Shown: positions 52,099 through 57,181, numbered from the stretch's first letter. The stretch is 64,000 nucleotides of DNA from Bacteroidota bacterium (GCA_947464275.1 CANHVU010000009.1:1-64000), one strand, 5' to 3'. A program made the numbers and translations. The notes: a model not told the origin generated them from the letters alone.

Positions 52099-52134
52099 AA
52101 AAAACCGCTTTAACTAAAACTAAAGCGGTTTTTT
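52099..52134 (+). terminator. Terminator of ettA
   Basis: Perfect 14-bp arms (52099-52112, 52121-52134) with T-run, about 85 bp after the stop codon. Confidence 0.85.
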
Positions 52135-52170
52135 ATTTTAATCTCCTATTGAAAATCTTGAGTAAATAAA

Positions 52171-52201
52171 AAAGGCTTATAAGTTAAACTTATAAGCCTT
52201 T
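52171..52201 (-). terminator. Probable original tRNA-Phe terminator, now separated from its gene
   Basis: 15-bp arms (52171-52185, 52187-52201) with a one-base loop, and a T-run when read on the minus strand. It lies just outside the left att copy. In the uninterrupted chromosome it would stand directly behind tRNA-Phe. Confidence 0.6.
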
Positions 52202-52209
52202 GATTTAAG

Positions 52210-52223
52210 TGTGGTGTAGGAGG
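52210..52223. repeat. Left attachment-site copy (14 bp)
   Basis: TGTGGTGTAGGAGG, identical to 57107-57120, where it forms the 3' end of tRNA-Phe. The two copies enclose the integrase and its cargo. Confidence 0.8.
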
Positions 52224-52338
52224 TACTACAACAATTATATTTCAATAAATCAATTACTACCAATTCACACACAAATGTATTATAATTAGGCTTATATACA
52301 ATACTTTTGAAAGTAAACAAAAGTAATTGAAAGTAATT

Positions 52339-52365
52339 TTTGTTTCAGTATTGTTTCAGTATTAC
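52339..52365. repeat. Left copy of the 27-bp end repeat (two GTTTCAGTA motifs)
   Basis: Differs at two positions from 57027-57053, same orientation. The half-motif GTTTCAGTA occurs twice in each. Likely integrase arm-type binding site, or an excisionase site. Confidence 0.65.
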
Positions 52366-52390
52366 TATATTTGAAGAAAAATTTAAATAT

Positions 52391-53599
52391 ATGGCTATTA
52401 CCTATAAACCTGAAATAAACAGCAAACCTAAAAAAGATGGAACTTGTTTAATTATGCTTAGGATAACAGAAAACAGAAAAATTAAAAGAATTTCTACTGG
52501 TGTTTTTGTTAGCTTTAATGCATTTAACAAAGAAGCTAAAGAAGGTTACTGGATAAGAAAAAGCAATCCTAATCATAAAAAACTTAATTCAGATATTCAA
52601 GATTTTATTGATAAAGCAAAAAAAGCAAGTAAAACCATTGAAAAAAACAATCAAATTGTTTCAGCAAAAAGTATAATTAATGAAGTAAATAACAAAAATA
52701 CTGGCAGCTTTACAGATTACTTTAAGGCTAAACTTGAAACCTACCTTACAACTCATGCAGCTGGTTATTATAAGCACCTTAAATCAAAGCTAAACAACTT
52801 AAATGAATTTAATAGCAATATACTTTTTACAGAATTAAATGTTTCACTACTGAATAAATATGAAGTACACTTAAAGAAAAAAGGTTTGAATGATAATTCA
52901 GTTACTTCTAATTTAAGAGCAATAAGAACTATTTTATATGAAGCAATCAAAGAAGATTTATTTGAAGGAAAGAATCCTTTTACAAGTAAAACACTAAAAG
53001 AGTTTAAGACAAACAAAGAAAAACTTTCACTTGAAGAAATAAAGAAAATTGAAGGATTAGAACTTGAAGAAAATTCAATTCTTTGGAATGTGAAAAATTA
53101 TTTTCTGTTTGCCTATTATGCAGCTGGAATAAGAATTGGTGACTTCATGCAATTACAATGGAAAAACATTGTTGAAGATACTTTAATTTACAATATGGAT
53201 AAAACAGCTTCAGCACATGAAGTAGTATTGATTCCAAAAGCAAAAGCTATTCTTAAATTATACCAAACTAAAAATACTAATAGTGAAAATTATATTTTTC
53301 CAATTTTGAAAAATGAACTACTAAAAGCTGATAAACTAAAACTAAATTCAGCAATAAGTAGTAAGAATGCAGTAATAAATTTGAACTTAAAAAAAATAGC
53401 ATTGAAAGCTAAAATAAATAAGAATCTTACTTTTCATATAAGTAGACATTCATTTGCTGATATTCTTAGGCAACAAGATGTTTCAATTTATGATATTAAG
53501 GATTTACTAGGACATTCAGATATAAAAATTACTCAAAACTACTTGAAAAGTTTTGATAGAGATTCAGCAAACAAAGCACATAGTAAAGCAGTATTGTAG
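52391..53599 (+). CDS. Tyrosine recombinase (integrase) of the element
   Basis: A 402-residue site-specific recombinase. The N-terminus (MAITYKPEINSKPKKDGTCLI...KIKRISTGV) is the arm-binding domain typical of Bacteroidota integrases, then a SAM-like core-binding domain (about 100-195) and the catalytic domain. Catalytic residues are visible: R248 in AGIRIGD, H349 and R352 in HISRHS, H375 in LLGHSD, and nucleophile Y384. The ATG at 52391 gives the family start; the longer frame would run through the 27-bp repeat. All arginines use AGA/AGG. A terminator follows at 53647. Confidence 0.95.
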   Translation: MAITYKPEINSKPKKDGTCLIMLRITENRKIKRISTGVFVSFNAFNKEAKEGYWIRKSNPNHKKLNSDIQDFIDKAKKASKTIEKNNQIVSAKSIINEVNNKNTGSFTDYFKAKLETYLTTHAAGYYKHLKSKLNNLNEFNSNILFTELNVSLLNKYEVHLKKKGLNDNSVTSNLRAIRTILYEAIKEDLFEGKNPFTSKTLKEFKTNKEKLSLEEIKKIEGLELEENSILWNVKNYFLFAYYAAGIRIGDFMQLQWKNIVEDTLIYNMDKTASAHEVVLIPKAKAILKLYQTKNTNSENYIFPILKNELLKADKLKLNSAISSKNAVINLNLKKIALKAKINKNLTFHISRHSFADILRQQDVSIYDIKDLLGHSDIKITQNYLKSFDRDSANKAHSKAVL

Positions 53600-53609
53600 A
53601 TTAAGCAGA

Positions 53610-53625
53610 TAAGAAATCTTATCCA
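53610..53625. repeat. 16-bp motif TAAGAAATCTTATCCA, copy 1
   Basis: Identical to 55682-55697 (upstream of the small-terminase-like gene). The core is a dyad, so it is a candidate operator for a protein of the element. Confidence 0.6.
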
Positions 53626-53646
53626 TTTTTTAGCATAAATTATTTT

Positions 53647-53683
53647 AAAAAAGACCTTAGCAGAACTTGTTAAGGTCTTTTTT
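53647..53683 (+). terminator. Terminator of the integrase gene
   Basis: Perfect 13-bp arms (53647-53659 and 53671-53683), 11-base loop and a T-run. Confidence 0.85.
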
Positions 53684-53951
53684 TTGCTTTTAAATGAAAA
53701 TTAGTTTTCAACAAAAGTGTGAATACTTGATATACTATTAATAAACAAAGGGTGCAGAAGACATTTCAACAAGTTAGCCACTATCCATTGCACCAAATCA
53801 TTTAATACAGTCCTTTGCAAAGGGTATTTAGCTATAAATGAATGACAATCTATAAAGCAAATTAAATTTAATCTTATATTTTAAAGTAGGCTAATGTAAA
53901 TAGTTACAACTTTATAAAAATAGGAATATCAATTTTGAAAAATCTAAAATC

Positions 53952-54230
53952 ATGAATATAACAGCAATTGAAAAAGAAGAATTAGAAAAATTAACAAATG
54001 CAATCTTTGAAATAAAGGATTCACTTGTAAAAAGAGATGAAGAAGAATTTAGTTCTTCAATCATTGAATCAAAAAAGATTCCAAAACTATTAGGAATTAG
54101 CCCAAAAACATGGCAAAATTACAGAGATAAAGGAGTAATTCCATTTATTCAATTAGGTGCTAAAATTTGGGTGAAAAGAAGTGACATTGAAACTTTTTTA
54201 AACAATCACTATATTAATAAAACTGCTTAA
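53952..54230 (+). CDS. Excisionase-like helix-turn-helix protein
   Basis: A 92-residue protein with an N-terminal coiled helix (KEELEKLTNAIFEIKDSLVK) and an HTH_17/MerR-like domain: KIPKLLGISPKTWQNYRDKGVIPFIQLGAKIWVKRSDIETFL. This winged-helix pattern is shared by excisionases and small mobilisation regulators next to Bacteroidota integrases. It may direct excision together with the integrase, or act as a transcription factor. It starts an apparent operon with orf156 (2 bp apart) and the rep-like gene. Confidence 0.85.
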   Translation: MNITAIEKEELEKLTNAIFEIKDSLVKRDEEEFSSSIIESKKIPKLLGISPKTWQNYRDKGVIPFIQLGAKIWVKRSDIETFLNNHYINKTA

Positions 54231-54232
54231 AT

Positions 54233-54703
54233 ATGAATACTGAATTTATAAAATTAAAGCATGAAGTATTTACTTATCAATTAAAAGAAGGAACTAAAAG
54301 CAGTTACCTATTAATTGAAGGAAAGAAAAATTTATTTACTGAAAGATTATCTTTTTTACCATACAAAGGAAAGACTGGAATAAGGACTGCAAAATATCAA
54401 ATTGATGGATATTATAAGAAGAATGATTTAGGACTTTATAAGGCTTTAAATAGTGGTAAAATACATACTAAAATTATGAAAGCAGATGACTTTCCAATGT
54501 TTGTTGGTTGGGGTGAAATAGATGAAAGAAAAAATGTATATGATTTAATTATAATTTACAGTACTAACAATTGTAAAGAATCATTTGAAGTTCACCTATT
54601 TAAAGGATTAGCAAAGATTGAATTTCATAATGAAGTATTCAGCTATTTACAATCATTTATTAATAATAGAAGCACTTTTAATTCATTAAATGAAGTAGCA
54701 TAA
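54233..54703 (+). CDS. Element protein of unknown function (156 aa)
   Basis: I do not recognise this protein. It is a mixed alpha/beta protein without signal peptide or membrane span; lysine is frequent. A central stretch (KADDFPMFVGWGEIDERKNVYDLIIIYSTNN) is strand-rich and the end is helical. It lies 2 bp after the excisionase-like gene and 1 bp before the rep-like gene, so it is almost certainly co-translated with them. A replication accessory or single-strand-binding role would fit the place but is only a guess. Confidence 0.75.
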   Translation: MNTEFIKLKHEVFTYQLKEGTKSSYLLIEGKKNLFTERLSFLPYKGKTGIRTAKYQIDGYYKKNDLGLYKALNSGKIHTKIMKADDFPMFVGWGEIDERKNVYDLIIIYSTNNCKESFEVHLFKGLAKIEFHNEVFSYLQSFINNRSTFNSLNEVA

Positions 54704-54704
54704 T

Positions 54705-55655
54705 ATGAACTATGATTTTACTAGTTTAATAAAAAATGTAAGTAAGGATAATTTATGTTTTAACTATTTGGACCATGAAGCAAGTTATAGTCAAGGCAAA
54801 GAAAAATATATTCTCAAAGGTGTTAAAAATATTGAAGTTTATCACAATCCTTCTTCTTCAGAAATTAGCCTTAATGCAAACTTTCCTTATTTTATACAAG
54901 GACATAATTTTGCTTTTAGTAGTGAAAAAATGAAAGAAGCAATTCAATATACTTCAGAACTATTAAACATTAATTTGTTTAGTTCTTTGGTAAAATCATT
55001 TGAGTTTGGTAGCATAATTGAATTAAACTTTCCTATTGATGAATTTTTATCAAATCATATTAGCTTAATAGGCAAATCAACACAACCATATTTAACACAA
55101 AACAAACTAACTGGTAAATATTTTAAAGATGGAATAATGGTCCATAAATTATACAATGCTGGTGCAAATATCAAAAGCAAACTTTCAAGCACCATAAGAG
55201 AAGATTTAAGCCATAATCATGGCTATGATAAGGCTAAGAACTATTTGAAAATAGAAAATCATTATATGAAGCCTAATGTTCATTTTAAGAAAAGAAATTT
55301 GTATTTAAATGAAGTGCTAAGTAATAGCTTTATGAATGAATGCAAAGAAGATTTAATCACAACCTATAAAAGCATAATGAAAACTGGAATTATAAAATTA
55401 CCTGAAGATAAAAAAGATTTAAATGCTGGAACTATTCCATTAATAATTTTAAAAGAACTAGAAGCACTATTTCCTTTTAATTCAGAAGAACTTATTTTTG
55501 GTAAGCTGAAATCTATTCCTGAAGAAATCTTGAACAAGAATGATAAAAAAGCTAGAAAAGCAATTTTAAGTTCAAACTTTGACAAAATAAACAACAATGC
55601 TAATTTGAGTAATTATGATATTACTTCAAAACTTGAAAGTACTAAAATAAATTAA
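54705..55655 (+). CDS. Possible phage/plasmid replication protein (gene II/X-like)
   Basis: A 316-residue soluble protein. A segment with FIQGHNFAFSSEKMKEAIQYTSELLNI resembles the LQGHN...SEALL...L stretch of filamentous-phage gene II proteins, and is followed, as in those, by an EFGSIIELNF strand and later by YLKIENHYMK, which parallels the LRFEARIK strand. The correspondence is seen by eye and is weak; a nicking site was not identified with confidence. If right, the element replicates by rolling circle. It closes the xis-orf156-rep operon; a short hairpin (55657-55681) follows. Confidence 0.5.
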   Translation: MNYDFTSLIKNVSKDNLCFNYLDHEASYSQGKEKYILKGVKNIEVYHNPSSSEISLNANFPYFIQGHNFAFSSEKMKEAIQYTSELLNINLFSSLVKSFEFGSIIELNFPIDEFLSNHISLIGKSTQPYLTQNKLTGKYFKDGIMVHKLYNAGANIKSKLSSTIREDLSHNHGYDKAKNYLKIENHYMKPNVHFKKRNLYLNEVLSNSFMNECKEDLITTYKSIMKTGIIKLPEDKKDLNAGTIPLIILKELEALFPFNSEELIFGKLKSIPEEILNKNDKKARKAILSSNFDKINNNANLSNYDITSKLESTKIN

Positions 55656-55681
55656 CCCTTTTTATTAAGTATATAAAAAGG

Positions 55682-55697
55682 TAAGAAATCTTATCCA
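55682..55697. repeat. 16-bp motif TAAGAAATCTTATCCA, copy 2
   Basis: Identical to 53610-53625; ends 9 bp before the ATG at 55707, a position suited to repression of the following genes. Confidence 0.6.
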
Positions 55698-55706
55698 AAC
55701 ATAAAA

Positions 55707-56150
55707 ATGATTAAACCAATTGAACTTGAACAATTATCTTATAAATATATTGATGAATGCTTAAACCATAAAAAAGAGCATGCTTCTGCTTCAGGTAGAA
55801 TTGTATTGATAACTGAAAGAAAAATTCCAACAATTGATTTTTTTCTTAGAATATGGATTCCAATTCAGAACAAAGAAACAATTTGCAGAAGAACTTATTA
55901 TAACTGGTTAAATGGTAATAATGAAGAAAAAATGCACACTATAAAAAGGATTAGTGATTTATTTATTGCACTTGCAATTGATATAGTAGCTAATGAAGCA
56001 AAAGGAATATTTTATGCTAAAAATAGATTAGGCATGACTGACAAAGCAGTAATTGAACAGCAAGAAATAAAACCAATAATTATAAATTTAGGTAGTGGAA
56101 TAAATCCAAAAGAAGATGACAACTATAAATACTTACAGCCAGCTAATTGA
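55707..56150 (+). CDS. Possible small-terminase-like DNA-binding protein
   Basis: A 147-residue, largely helical protein. The pattern TICRRTYYNWLNGNNEE near residues 60-76 looks like a helix-turn-helix, and the later ANEAKGIFYAKNRLGMTDKAVIEQQEIKPIIINLG follows the usual build of phage small terminase subunits (a helix, AIFxxKNRxGxxDK, then an extended tail). This is a judgement by eye; a transcription regulator is the alternative. A small terminase would let the element redirect a helper phage's packaging. It is preceded by the 16-bp motif copy 2. Confidence 0.45.
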   Translation: MIKPIELEQLSYKYIDECLNHKKEHASASGRIVLITERKIPTIDFFLRIWIPIQNKETICRRTYYNWLNGNNEEKMHTIKRISDLFIALAIDIVANEAKGIFYAKNRLGMTDKAVIEQQEIKPIIINLGSGINPKEDDNYKYLQPAN

Positions 56151-56340
56151 TTTTATAAGGGCTAACAACCTAAGTATAAAACAAACTAATGAAATAATTA
56201 CAGCAAGTTTAAATGTTATTGTATTAGAAGATTATAACACAAAAGAAGATTTATTAAAAGCAATAGAAACCTACTGGAATAAATGGAAAAACATAAAGGA
56301 AAGACCTATTTTTATAGGATTAGATATGGATGTTAAGTAA
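56116..56340 (+). CDS. Small element protein, unknown (74 aa)
   Basis: A 74-residue frame that starts inside the last 35 bases of the preceding gene. The sequence is helical (TYSQLIDFIRANNLSIKQTNEIITASLNVIV...LLKAIETYWNKWKNI) and has no signal peptide. The overlap and the good end near the convergent lipoprotein gene make it plausible, but I recognise no family. Confidence 0.5.
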   Translation: MTTINTYSQLIDFIRANNLSIKQTNEIITASLNVIVLEDYNTKEDLLKAIETYWNKWKNIKERPIFIGLDMDVK

Positions 56341-56354
56341 ATTGAATGTATATC

Positions 56355-56909
56355 TTATGGTAGCTTTGGTTTTTCATTCTTAAATTGAACATATTCATAA
56401 GCAAAGTTAGGTTCTGTATCTTGGCTTACAATTTCCTGCATTTCATTTTCTGAAATTTTGCAAATTATCTTGCCTCCTCCAATTATATAATAATTTAATA
56501 CTGATGTTTTAACTTTCATTACTGGTATTTCAACTCTATAAAAAGCCTTAGCAACTTCATATAAAATATCATCCTTATTCAAAGACTTAAGTTGTTTAAA
56601 TCTGTTTTGTTGCCATTTATACCAATTATATTGTTCACTTCTTTTAAGGTTATCAACATCCATAAAACGATTTATGAGAGTGTCAATATTTCCTTCACCA
56701 TTTAATTCTTTTTTTATCCAATAATTTGTTACATTATCTACTGAAAATTTACCAACAAAAACAATGCTATCAATTTCAGGTTTAATATCAACCCCTAATG
56801 CATTTTCTATAATATTTGCTTTAATAATTTCTTTGTAAGGACTTTTATCATTGTTGCAAGCAAACAAAAAAAGAAATAAGACAAAAATTGAATAATTAGT
56901 AGTTTTCAT
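56355..56909 (-). CDS. Lipoprotein cargo gene of the element
   Basis: A 184-residue lipoprotein with a short signal peptide and lipobox LFACN (cysteine near residue 18). The mature part is soluble, with no motif I can assign. It runs opposite to the other cargo, as moron genes often do, and holds the only CpG inside a gene of the element (56668). Lipoproteins in prophages and satellites often block superinfection; that role is a suggestion from context alone. Confidence 0.75.
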   Translation of the reverse strand: MKTTNYSIFVLFLFLFACNNDKSPYKEIIKANIIENALGVDIKPEIDSIVFVGKFSVDNVTNYWIKKELNGEGNIDTLINRFMDVDNLKRSEQYNWYKWQQNRFKQLKSLNKDDILYEVAKAFYRVEIPVMKVKTSVLNYYIIGGGKIICKISENEMQEIVSQDTEPNFAYEYVQFKNEKPKLP

Positions 56910-57026
56910 AGGTTTAATATTTATTTCGAATGTATAGTTTATTTTTGATTATCCAAAAACTGAAAATATAATAATTTTAGCTACTAACTATTAGAAAGAA
57001 AAGCTAAAAACAAAGCAAACTTCAGT

Positions 57027-57053
57027 TTTGTTTCAGTATAGTTTCAGTAATAC
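57027..57053. repeat. Right copy of the 27-bp end repeat
   Basis: 25 of 27 bases match 52339-52365; same orientation; 53 bp inside the right att copy. Confidence 0.65.
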
Positions 57054-57061
57054 AAATAAAA

Positions 57062-57093
57062 AAAGCATTGAATAAACTAGTATTCAATGCTTT
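57062..57093 (-). terminator. Replacement terminator behind tRNA-Phe, carried by the element
   Basis: Perfect 13-bp arms (57062-57074 and 57081-57093), T-run on the minus strand, 16 bp after the tRNA-Phe 3' end. It lies inside the element. Confidence 0.75.
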
Positions 57094-57106
57094 ATAAGTT
57101 TTTTAA

Positions 57107-57120
57107 TGTGGTGTAGGAGG
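57107..57120. repeat. Right attachment-site copy (14 bp)
   Basis: Same 14 bases as 52210-52223; 57109-57120 is the 3' end of tRNA-Phe. Confidence 0.8.
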
Positions 57121-57181
57121 GAATCGAACCCCCGACACAAAGATTTTCAGTCTTTTGCTCTACCGACTGAGCTACTGCACC
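57109..57181 (-). tRNA. tRNA-Phe (anticodon GAA), attachment site of the element
   Basis: A 73-nt cloverleaf on the minus strand. The acceptor GGTGCAG/CTACACC has one mismatch (C5-A68). The D-arm is normal, the anticodon stem AAAGA/TCTTT holds CTGAAAA (GAA), and the T-arm is GGGGG-TTCGATT-CCCTC. CCA is not encoded. The last 12 bases are part of the 14-bp att repeat. Confidence 0.93.

Follow-up and report, generated by a model that had tools for sequence, protein, structure and literature searches.

An integrated element of about 4.9 kb in the genome of a Bacteroidota bacterium is nearly devoid of the dinucleotide CpG, while the chromosome that carries it is normal in this respect. The element lies in a stretch of 64,000 nucleotides (GCA_947464275.1, CANHVU010000009.1:1-64000), referred to here as the window. 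The loss is wider than the window and extends to a group of related satellites, to phages with matching terminases and to two cultured crAss-like gut phages. The gene anatomy of the element is that of a probable minimal integrative phage satellite in a tRNA-Phe gene, and the evidence leans towards selection against CpG in a phage-infected or packaged stage common to satellite and helper.

CpG content of the element and of the host chromosome

The region 52128-56667, a run of 4,540 bp, holds no CpG where 72.6 are expected from base composition, as the original prediction had claimed. The CpGs flanking the run are at 52126, 56668 and 56927; the first downstream position had been predicted correctly and the second had been placed at 56937. 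The whole att-bounded element (52210-57107) contains 2 CpGs against 76.6 expected, an observed/expected ratio (o/e) of 0.026, and apart from the run no CpG-free gap in the window exceeds 442 bp. With attL at 52210-52223, the run begins 80 bp outside the element, so its description as part of the element is right for all but this stretch of host sequence. Of the seven genes it was said to span, six are covered whole and the seventh only in part.

Neighbouring host DNA had been described as normal, and a 400-kb sample of the genome, drawn from 11 other contigs, has a CpG o/e of 0.772 and a longest gap of 637 bp. At a host-like o/e of 0.77 the run would hold 56 CpGs, and the Poisson chance of none is thus about e^-56. 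The loss is specific to CpG rather than a product of low G+C: the same run keeps 122 GpC, and twelve 1-kb host windows with G+C <27% have a mean CpG o/e of 0.67, so that host DNA of similar composition is not equally poor in CpG. Recoding the proteins of the element with host codon usage gives 82 +/- 7 CpGs in coding sequence, against 1 observed, and under the element's own codon usage the codon junctions alone predict 26 +/- 5 (minimum 14 in 300 simulations). The noncoding part (798 bases) has 1 CpG against 10.6 expected. No NCG codon is used, as predicted; AGA/AGG make up 32 of 33 arginine codons, one short of the complete use that had been claimed. The near-total absence of CpG is confirmed as a real and extreme feature of the element.

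Anatomy of the element

The features of the element and its integration site are listed below.

52210-57107: integrated element, putative phage satellite, ~4.9 kb (att repeats and CpG counts)
52210-52223: attL, TGTGGTGTAGGAGG (exact 14-bp direct repeat)
52340-52366: probable integrase arm-type site, left, TTTCAGTATTGTTTCAGTATTAC (from direct reading of the sequence)
52391-53599, plus strand: tyrosine integrase (Pfam Phage_integrase 3.4e-19, SAM_5, Arm-DNA-bind_5)
53952-54230, plus strand: HTH_17 regulator or excisionase with an AlpA-like role (Pfam HTH_17 3.9e-9)
54233-54703, plus strand: protein X, 156 aa, kept within the satellite family and without known homologue
54705-55655, plus strand: probable Rep, 316 aa, distantly related to G2P-type rolling-circle initiators (indirect link via L238)
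55707-56150, plus strand: terminase small subunit TerS, 147 aa (~60% identity to the gene that immediately precedes TerL in phage contigs)
56116-56340, plus strand: small ORF, 74 aa, whose start lies inside terS
56355-56909, minus strand: probable lipoprotein, 184 aa, cargo (LFACNN lipobox read directly)
56668-56669: first CpG of the element, inside the lipoprotein gene (count)
56927-56928: second CpG of the element (count)
57027-57052: probable integrase arm-type site, right, GTTTTGTTTCAGTATAGTTTCAGTAA (from direct reading of the sequence)
57108-57121: attR, TGTGGTGTAGGAGG, 3' end of tRNA-Phe (exact 14-bp direct repeat)
57108-57181, minus strand: tRNA-Phe(GAA), integration target (ARAGORN)

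The first ATG of the integrase is at 52391, and a longer TTG ORF opens at 52340. The arm-type motif GTTTTGTTTCAGTATAGTTTCAGTAA is also repeated at either end of the related element L223. The predicted structure of protein X has a pLDDT of 62.6. The 316-aa protein has no direct Pfam match and only a weak profile match; it is probably a Rep related to G2P, because the protein of L238 bridges the two profiles, matching both the 316-aa protein (1.6e-5) and the 309-aa proteins of sister elements (1e-26). The 309-aa proteins of L223 and L224 in turn match filamentous-phage G2P (Pfam Phage_CRI) at 2e-21 and 4e-20. The predicted structure of the 316-aa Rep is too poor for use (pLDDT 42). Sequence searches of the PDB with Rep and TerS return no match, no relatives of the 316-aa protein occur in the phage and plasmid records searched, and none of this protein or of the integrase in viral contigs. 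The 147-aa protein is named TerS because of its synteny with phage TerL (Terminase_6N large subunit), and relatives likewise have a comparable small ORF after terS. The 184-aa lipoprotein has no family match, no capsid, tail or lysis gene is recognised among the seven ORFs, and in PADLOC the element has only a weak HTH match to mad1 and no defence system.

The element shares with TerS-type PICIs (PMC6092414) an integrase, att sites, an AlpA-type HTH regulator, a probable replication gene, a TerS homologue, cargo and the absence of recognised structural genes. Among the PICI criteria, the integrase with att sites, an AlpA/MerR/Stl-type regulator (the HTH_17 match at 3.9e-9), the TerS homologue and the lack of capsid, tail and lysis genes are all found; for the primase/Rep criterion no primase is seen, and a G2P-type Rep is indicated through L238. 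The element differs in its length of only 4.9 kb, a Rep probably related to G2P instead of pri-rep, its Bacteroidota host and its near-total CpG loss. Judged by its genes, it would work like a TerS-type PICI cut to a minimal gene set. PICMI minimal satellites, which consist of int, alpA and a DUF3987/DUF5906 primase, with fis-adjacent integration in the prototype as an optional marker (PMC10803314), also have a minimal gene set, an integrase with an AlpA-like HTH_17 protein and a helper that is apparently not a resident prophage. In contrast with PICMIs, the element lies in tRNA-Phe and not at fis, and carries TerS; its assignment to PICMIs is rejected because the defining primase is absent and the Rep is of another kind. 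The similarity to filamentous phages is direct for the Rep of L223 and L224 and indirect for the window element, through the weak profile match and L238; no filamentous coat genes or assembly ATPase are found in the element, and its packaging gene is of the tailed-phage type.

Conservation of CpG loss among satellites

Three further genera of the host family carry relatives of the element, at 53-67% protein identity. CpG counts are 10 of 104 expected in L010 (0.096), 16 of 103 in L011 (0.155), 0 of 51 in L009, which is cut by a contig end, and 0 of 28 in the integrase relative L007. A related element from another host family (G325) is divided between two contig ends, with 0 of 27 in one part and 15 of 64 in the other. 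In yet another host family, L224, with a clearly different integrase and a G2P Rep, has 0 of 94; L223, with partly different modules, has 30 of 115 (0.26), and L240, with a second TerS type, 20 of 115 (0.17). Homologous integrases and related elements, which had been proposed as a check, are therefore also depleted (0-16% of expected), and satellites whose integrase, Rep or TerS is of another type, two further host families included, hold 0-26% of expected CpG. Because protein identity is only 53-67%, silent sites have been replaced repeatedly, which suggests that low CpG is actively maintained across the diverged satellites. The earlier view of an element not adapted to this chromosome, as a recent arrival from an odd host, is doubtful given that these relatives in three genera of the family are all depleted.

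Sister elements are found at tRNA-Phe and tRNA-Glu, each with its own repeats, and att repeats lie at tRNA ends for three elements. Several contigs of metagenome-assembled genomes (L007, L009, L016/L017) break off inside satellites, which would be expected of copies present at multiple sites or outside the chromosome in the samples. The trait is not universal among satellites with the same TerS: L222, from the same host genus as the window and a partial element, has an o/e of 0.63, and L023 is normal at 0.75. The latter (L023:1-7164), a contig from a virus collection, has a TerS 67% identical and an AAA/DnaB-like replication gene, and is apparently circular, since its terS is split across both contig ends, which hints only indirectly at induction, replication and packaging of such satellites by a helper. 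A larger integrative element (L018:7032-14013), normal in CpG (0.85), encodes a protein distantly related to the 316-aa Rep together with DNA polymerase-like and primase/helicase-like proteins.

CpG loss in phages

The first TerS type sits directly upstream of a Terminase_6N TerL in tailed-phage contigs of ~32-37 kb (family 1). In this family 71 contigs have a CpG o/e <0.6 (range 0.08-0.59), and the first 80 loci pooled contain 7280 CpGs against 28807 expected; most of these contigs are near relatives and thus represent few independent events, not 80. The sister clade (L110, L131, L132, L136, L139, L143 and L145) is CpG-rich, with an o/e of 1.2-1.8, and in a tree of TerS and TerL the low and high states divide at one branch. 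Within the CpG-rich clade CCGG reaches 2.96 times and ACGT 0.53 times its expected frequency, a skew opposite to that of the low clade. In family 2 the gene for the second TerS type (80-85 aa) immediately precedes a P-loop TerL-like gene, and 80 of 80 contigs of this family are CpG-depleted (0.23-0.67). Depletion in phages with the cognate TerS types supports the proposal that the cause belongs to the helper or infected-cell stage and not to the chromosome.

Satellite genes other than TerS have no match in family 1 or family 2 phages. The best TerS identity to phage contigs is ~61%, which implies that the real helper of the element is not among these phages. A search for a resident-prophage helper in 62 relatives yields no family 1 TerL and one weak 35% match. 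Just upstream of terS, L020:2303-4811 encodes glycosyltransferase-like, 242-aa and PP-loop (QueC/PAPS-reductase-like) proteins, and this trio is present in nearly all CpG-poor family 1 phages; as the CpG determinant it is rejected, since the CpG-rich L143 carries two of the three genes and the split is a single branch. An N6/N4 DNA methyltransferase occurs in a few members of both CpG-poor families (L064:3233-3883, G780:13033-13683, L248:992-1642) and was probably exchanged, being ~70% identical between families against 27-40% for other shared proteins. In CpG-poor phages the tail region has short segments richer in CpG (L047:19000-19875, L081:17000-18000), possibly recent imports.

Twelve cultured Bacteroidota phages, not picked at random, 11 of them as 20-30 kb parts, show how the trait is distributed among isolates. 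Ten have a CpG o/e of about 0.5-1.2, and crAss002 (0.69), Cellulophaga phi14:2 (0.51) and B124-14 (1.21) are accordingly not CpG-free. The Bacteroides crAss-like phage DAC15 (MT074136, L337-L339) has 74 CpGs against 3412 expected over 99 kb (0.02), and crAss001 (MH675552, L331), also a Bacteroides crAss-like phage, has 39 against 818 over 30 kb. B124-14, crAss002, DAC15 and crAss001 all infect Bacteroides hosts, yet their CpG ratios are very different. DAC15 has a single weak match to family 1 and no match to family 2, and no relative of the satellite genes is found in this phage. No description of the CpG loss in crAss001 or DAC15 was found in the literature covered, which includes few subscription journals.

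Possible causes of CpG loss

The explanation somewhat favoured here is that a stage common to satellite and helper selects against CpG. The integrase and the HTH protein would excise the satellite from tRNA-Phe, its own Rep would replicate it and its own TerS would direct its packaging into capsids made by a tailed helper phage; CpG-containing DNA would be at a disadvantage when it replicates in the infected cell, is packaged or enters the next cell. We infer an agent that recognises CpG in DNA, possibly an activity that destroys CpG-containing DNA. The structure of the element, the synteny of TerS, near-zero CpG across diverged satellites and depletion in TerS-matched phages support this explanation. 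The CpG-rich sister clade of family 1, with no clear gene difference that explains the split, and the CpG-normal satellites with the same TerS count against it, and no CpG-directed agent was found.

The sequence context of the loss limits the kind of agent. In low-CpG phages all 16 NCGN contexts are reduced to 0.16-0.35, so the target is the dinucleotide itself; arginine codons, NCG codons, and within-codon and junction positions are all depleted. This pattern disagrees with avoidance of type II sites of at least 4 bp and still fits a 2-bp specificity. Noncoding DNA of family 1 is less depleted (0.48) than coding DNA (0.26), and an RNA- or coding-level cause is therefore also possible.

Two explanations that name a source for the agent are each rather unlikely, to a similar degree. 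One is a patchy host-encoded defence, a 2-bp restriction system or sensor, that recognises CpG in DNA as it enters or replicates and drives phages and satellites to avoid it. Unrelated phage families have converged on depletion, as have satellites of differing module content from several Bacteroidota families, and avoidance of recognition sites is a known response to restriction (PMC4687349). However, same-genus phages differ as widely as B124-14 and DAC15, L222 from the genus of the window host is near normal, and the hosts have no common C5 methyltransferase in a survey confined to C5 enzymes. The other source is the helper, which would encode an activity directed at CpG that degrades or silences the host's DNA at takeover, with phage and satellite CpG-poor in order to survive. 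Depletion does behave as a trait of phage lineages, with one family 1 clade low and the other high, and among the cultured phages on Bacteroides hosts B124-14 (1.21) and crAss002 (0.69) contrast with DAC15 and crAss001 near zero. Yet no gene shared by all depleted lineages was found, as the near absence of matches between DAC15 and the two families illustrates, and among complete contigs the genes restricted to the low clade are mainly the glycosyltransferase-like and PP-loop genes, both of which the CpG-rich L143 carries.

Mutational loss is improbable as the cause. Under this explanation, a host or phage enzyme methylates CpG at C5 during the phage phase and deamination then converts it to TpG/CpA in the absence of selection, as the original prediction had offered for methylation. 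A CA/TG ratio of 1.38 in the low-CpG phages of family 1, against 1.03 in the CpG-rich clade, is in its favour and makes a partial mutational contribution possible. CpG methyltransferases are also linked to CpG scarcity in Mollicutes, with 0.46-0.5 in M. agalactiae, and are reported as described in bacteria only from that class (PMC9465063). The Mollicutes with M.SssI/M.MpeI-type enzymes share with the present case a CpG-specific underrepresentation in an AT-rich bacterial setting, but there the host genome is depleted, whereas here only mobile DNA is, at 0.00-0.26 and without a deamination signature; ratios of 0.00-0.03 are far under the Mollicute values. In the element AG/CT rises more (1.15 against 0.90 in the host) than CA/TG, which is barely raised (1.15 against 1.08). 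DAC15 and crAss001 have CA/TG of only 1.09-1.14 despite near-zero CpG, and depleted phages show no preference for NCA over NCT (TCN 2.15 vs 2.33, GCN 1.01 vs 1.86). The signature of C5 methylation, an excess of CpA/TpG with a shift from NCG to NCA, is thus absent, CA/TG being raised in family 1 phages only, and simple deamination is disfavoured. The proposed check for methyltransferases in hosts of relatives is divided: C5 enzymes are carried by G000 and G062, and G022 and G050, hosts of depleted elements, have no match, for which reason a resident C5 methyltransferase is rejected as the common cause. Integrated copies share the enzymes of their hosts, so the normal flanks and the two hosts without a C5 methyltransferase argue against the integrated state as the cause and place the pressure in the phage stage.

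An agent encoded by the element, in which X or Rep acts on CpG-containing helper or host DNA and the CpG-free element is self-protected, is very improbable: X and Rep are carried by those satellites that are poorest in CpG, and same-TerS satellites with a DUF6371-type or AAA-type replication module are CpG-normal, but L239 with Rep and a weak X match is normal (1.02), as are several G2P-Rep loci, the X of L223 and L224 has no detectable similarity to that of the window, and DAC15 is near CpG-free without relatives of the satellite genes. The G2P-type Rep is also rejected as sole determinant, L239, L245 and L246 being normal.

Implications for Bacteroidota mobile elements

The dinucleotide use of phages is usually similar to that of their hosts. 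In several unrelated Bacteroidota mobile lineages CpG is nearly absent while the host is normal and no clear methylation scar is seen, which implies a strong CpG pressure on bacterial mobile DNA. Literature searches on phage CpG and dinucleotide avoidance, with few subscription journals covered, found no description of such a pressure. Suppression of CpG in vertebrate and plant viruses is likewise an avoidance on the virus side (PMC7029135); the present case differs in concerning bacterial DNA elements, in having no known sensor and in being far more extreme.

The depletion makes CpG composition a cheap clue for pairing satellites with helper phages, and the cultured pair of DAC15 and Bacteroides thetaiotaomicron makes the pressure directly testable. 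A more specific proposal, held tentatively and with less confidence than selection itself, is that some Bacteroidota cells, or phages in them, possess an activity that recognises bare CpG in mobile DNA, a 2-bp discrimination of self from non-self. If true, such discrimination would be strong enough to strip CpG almost wholly from unrelated tailed phages, from crAss-like phages and from satellites, and would leave the chromosomes of their hosts normal.
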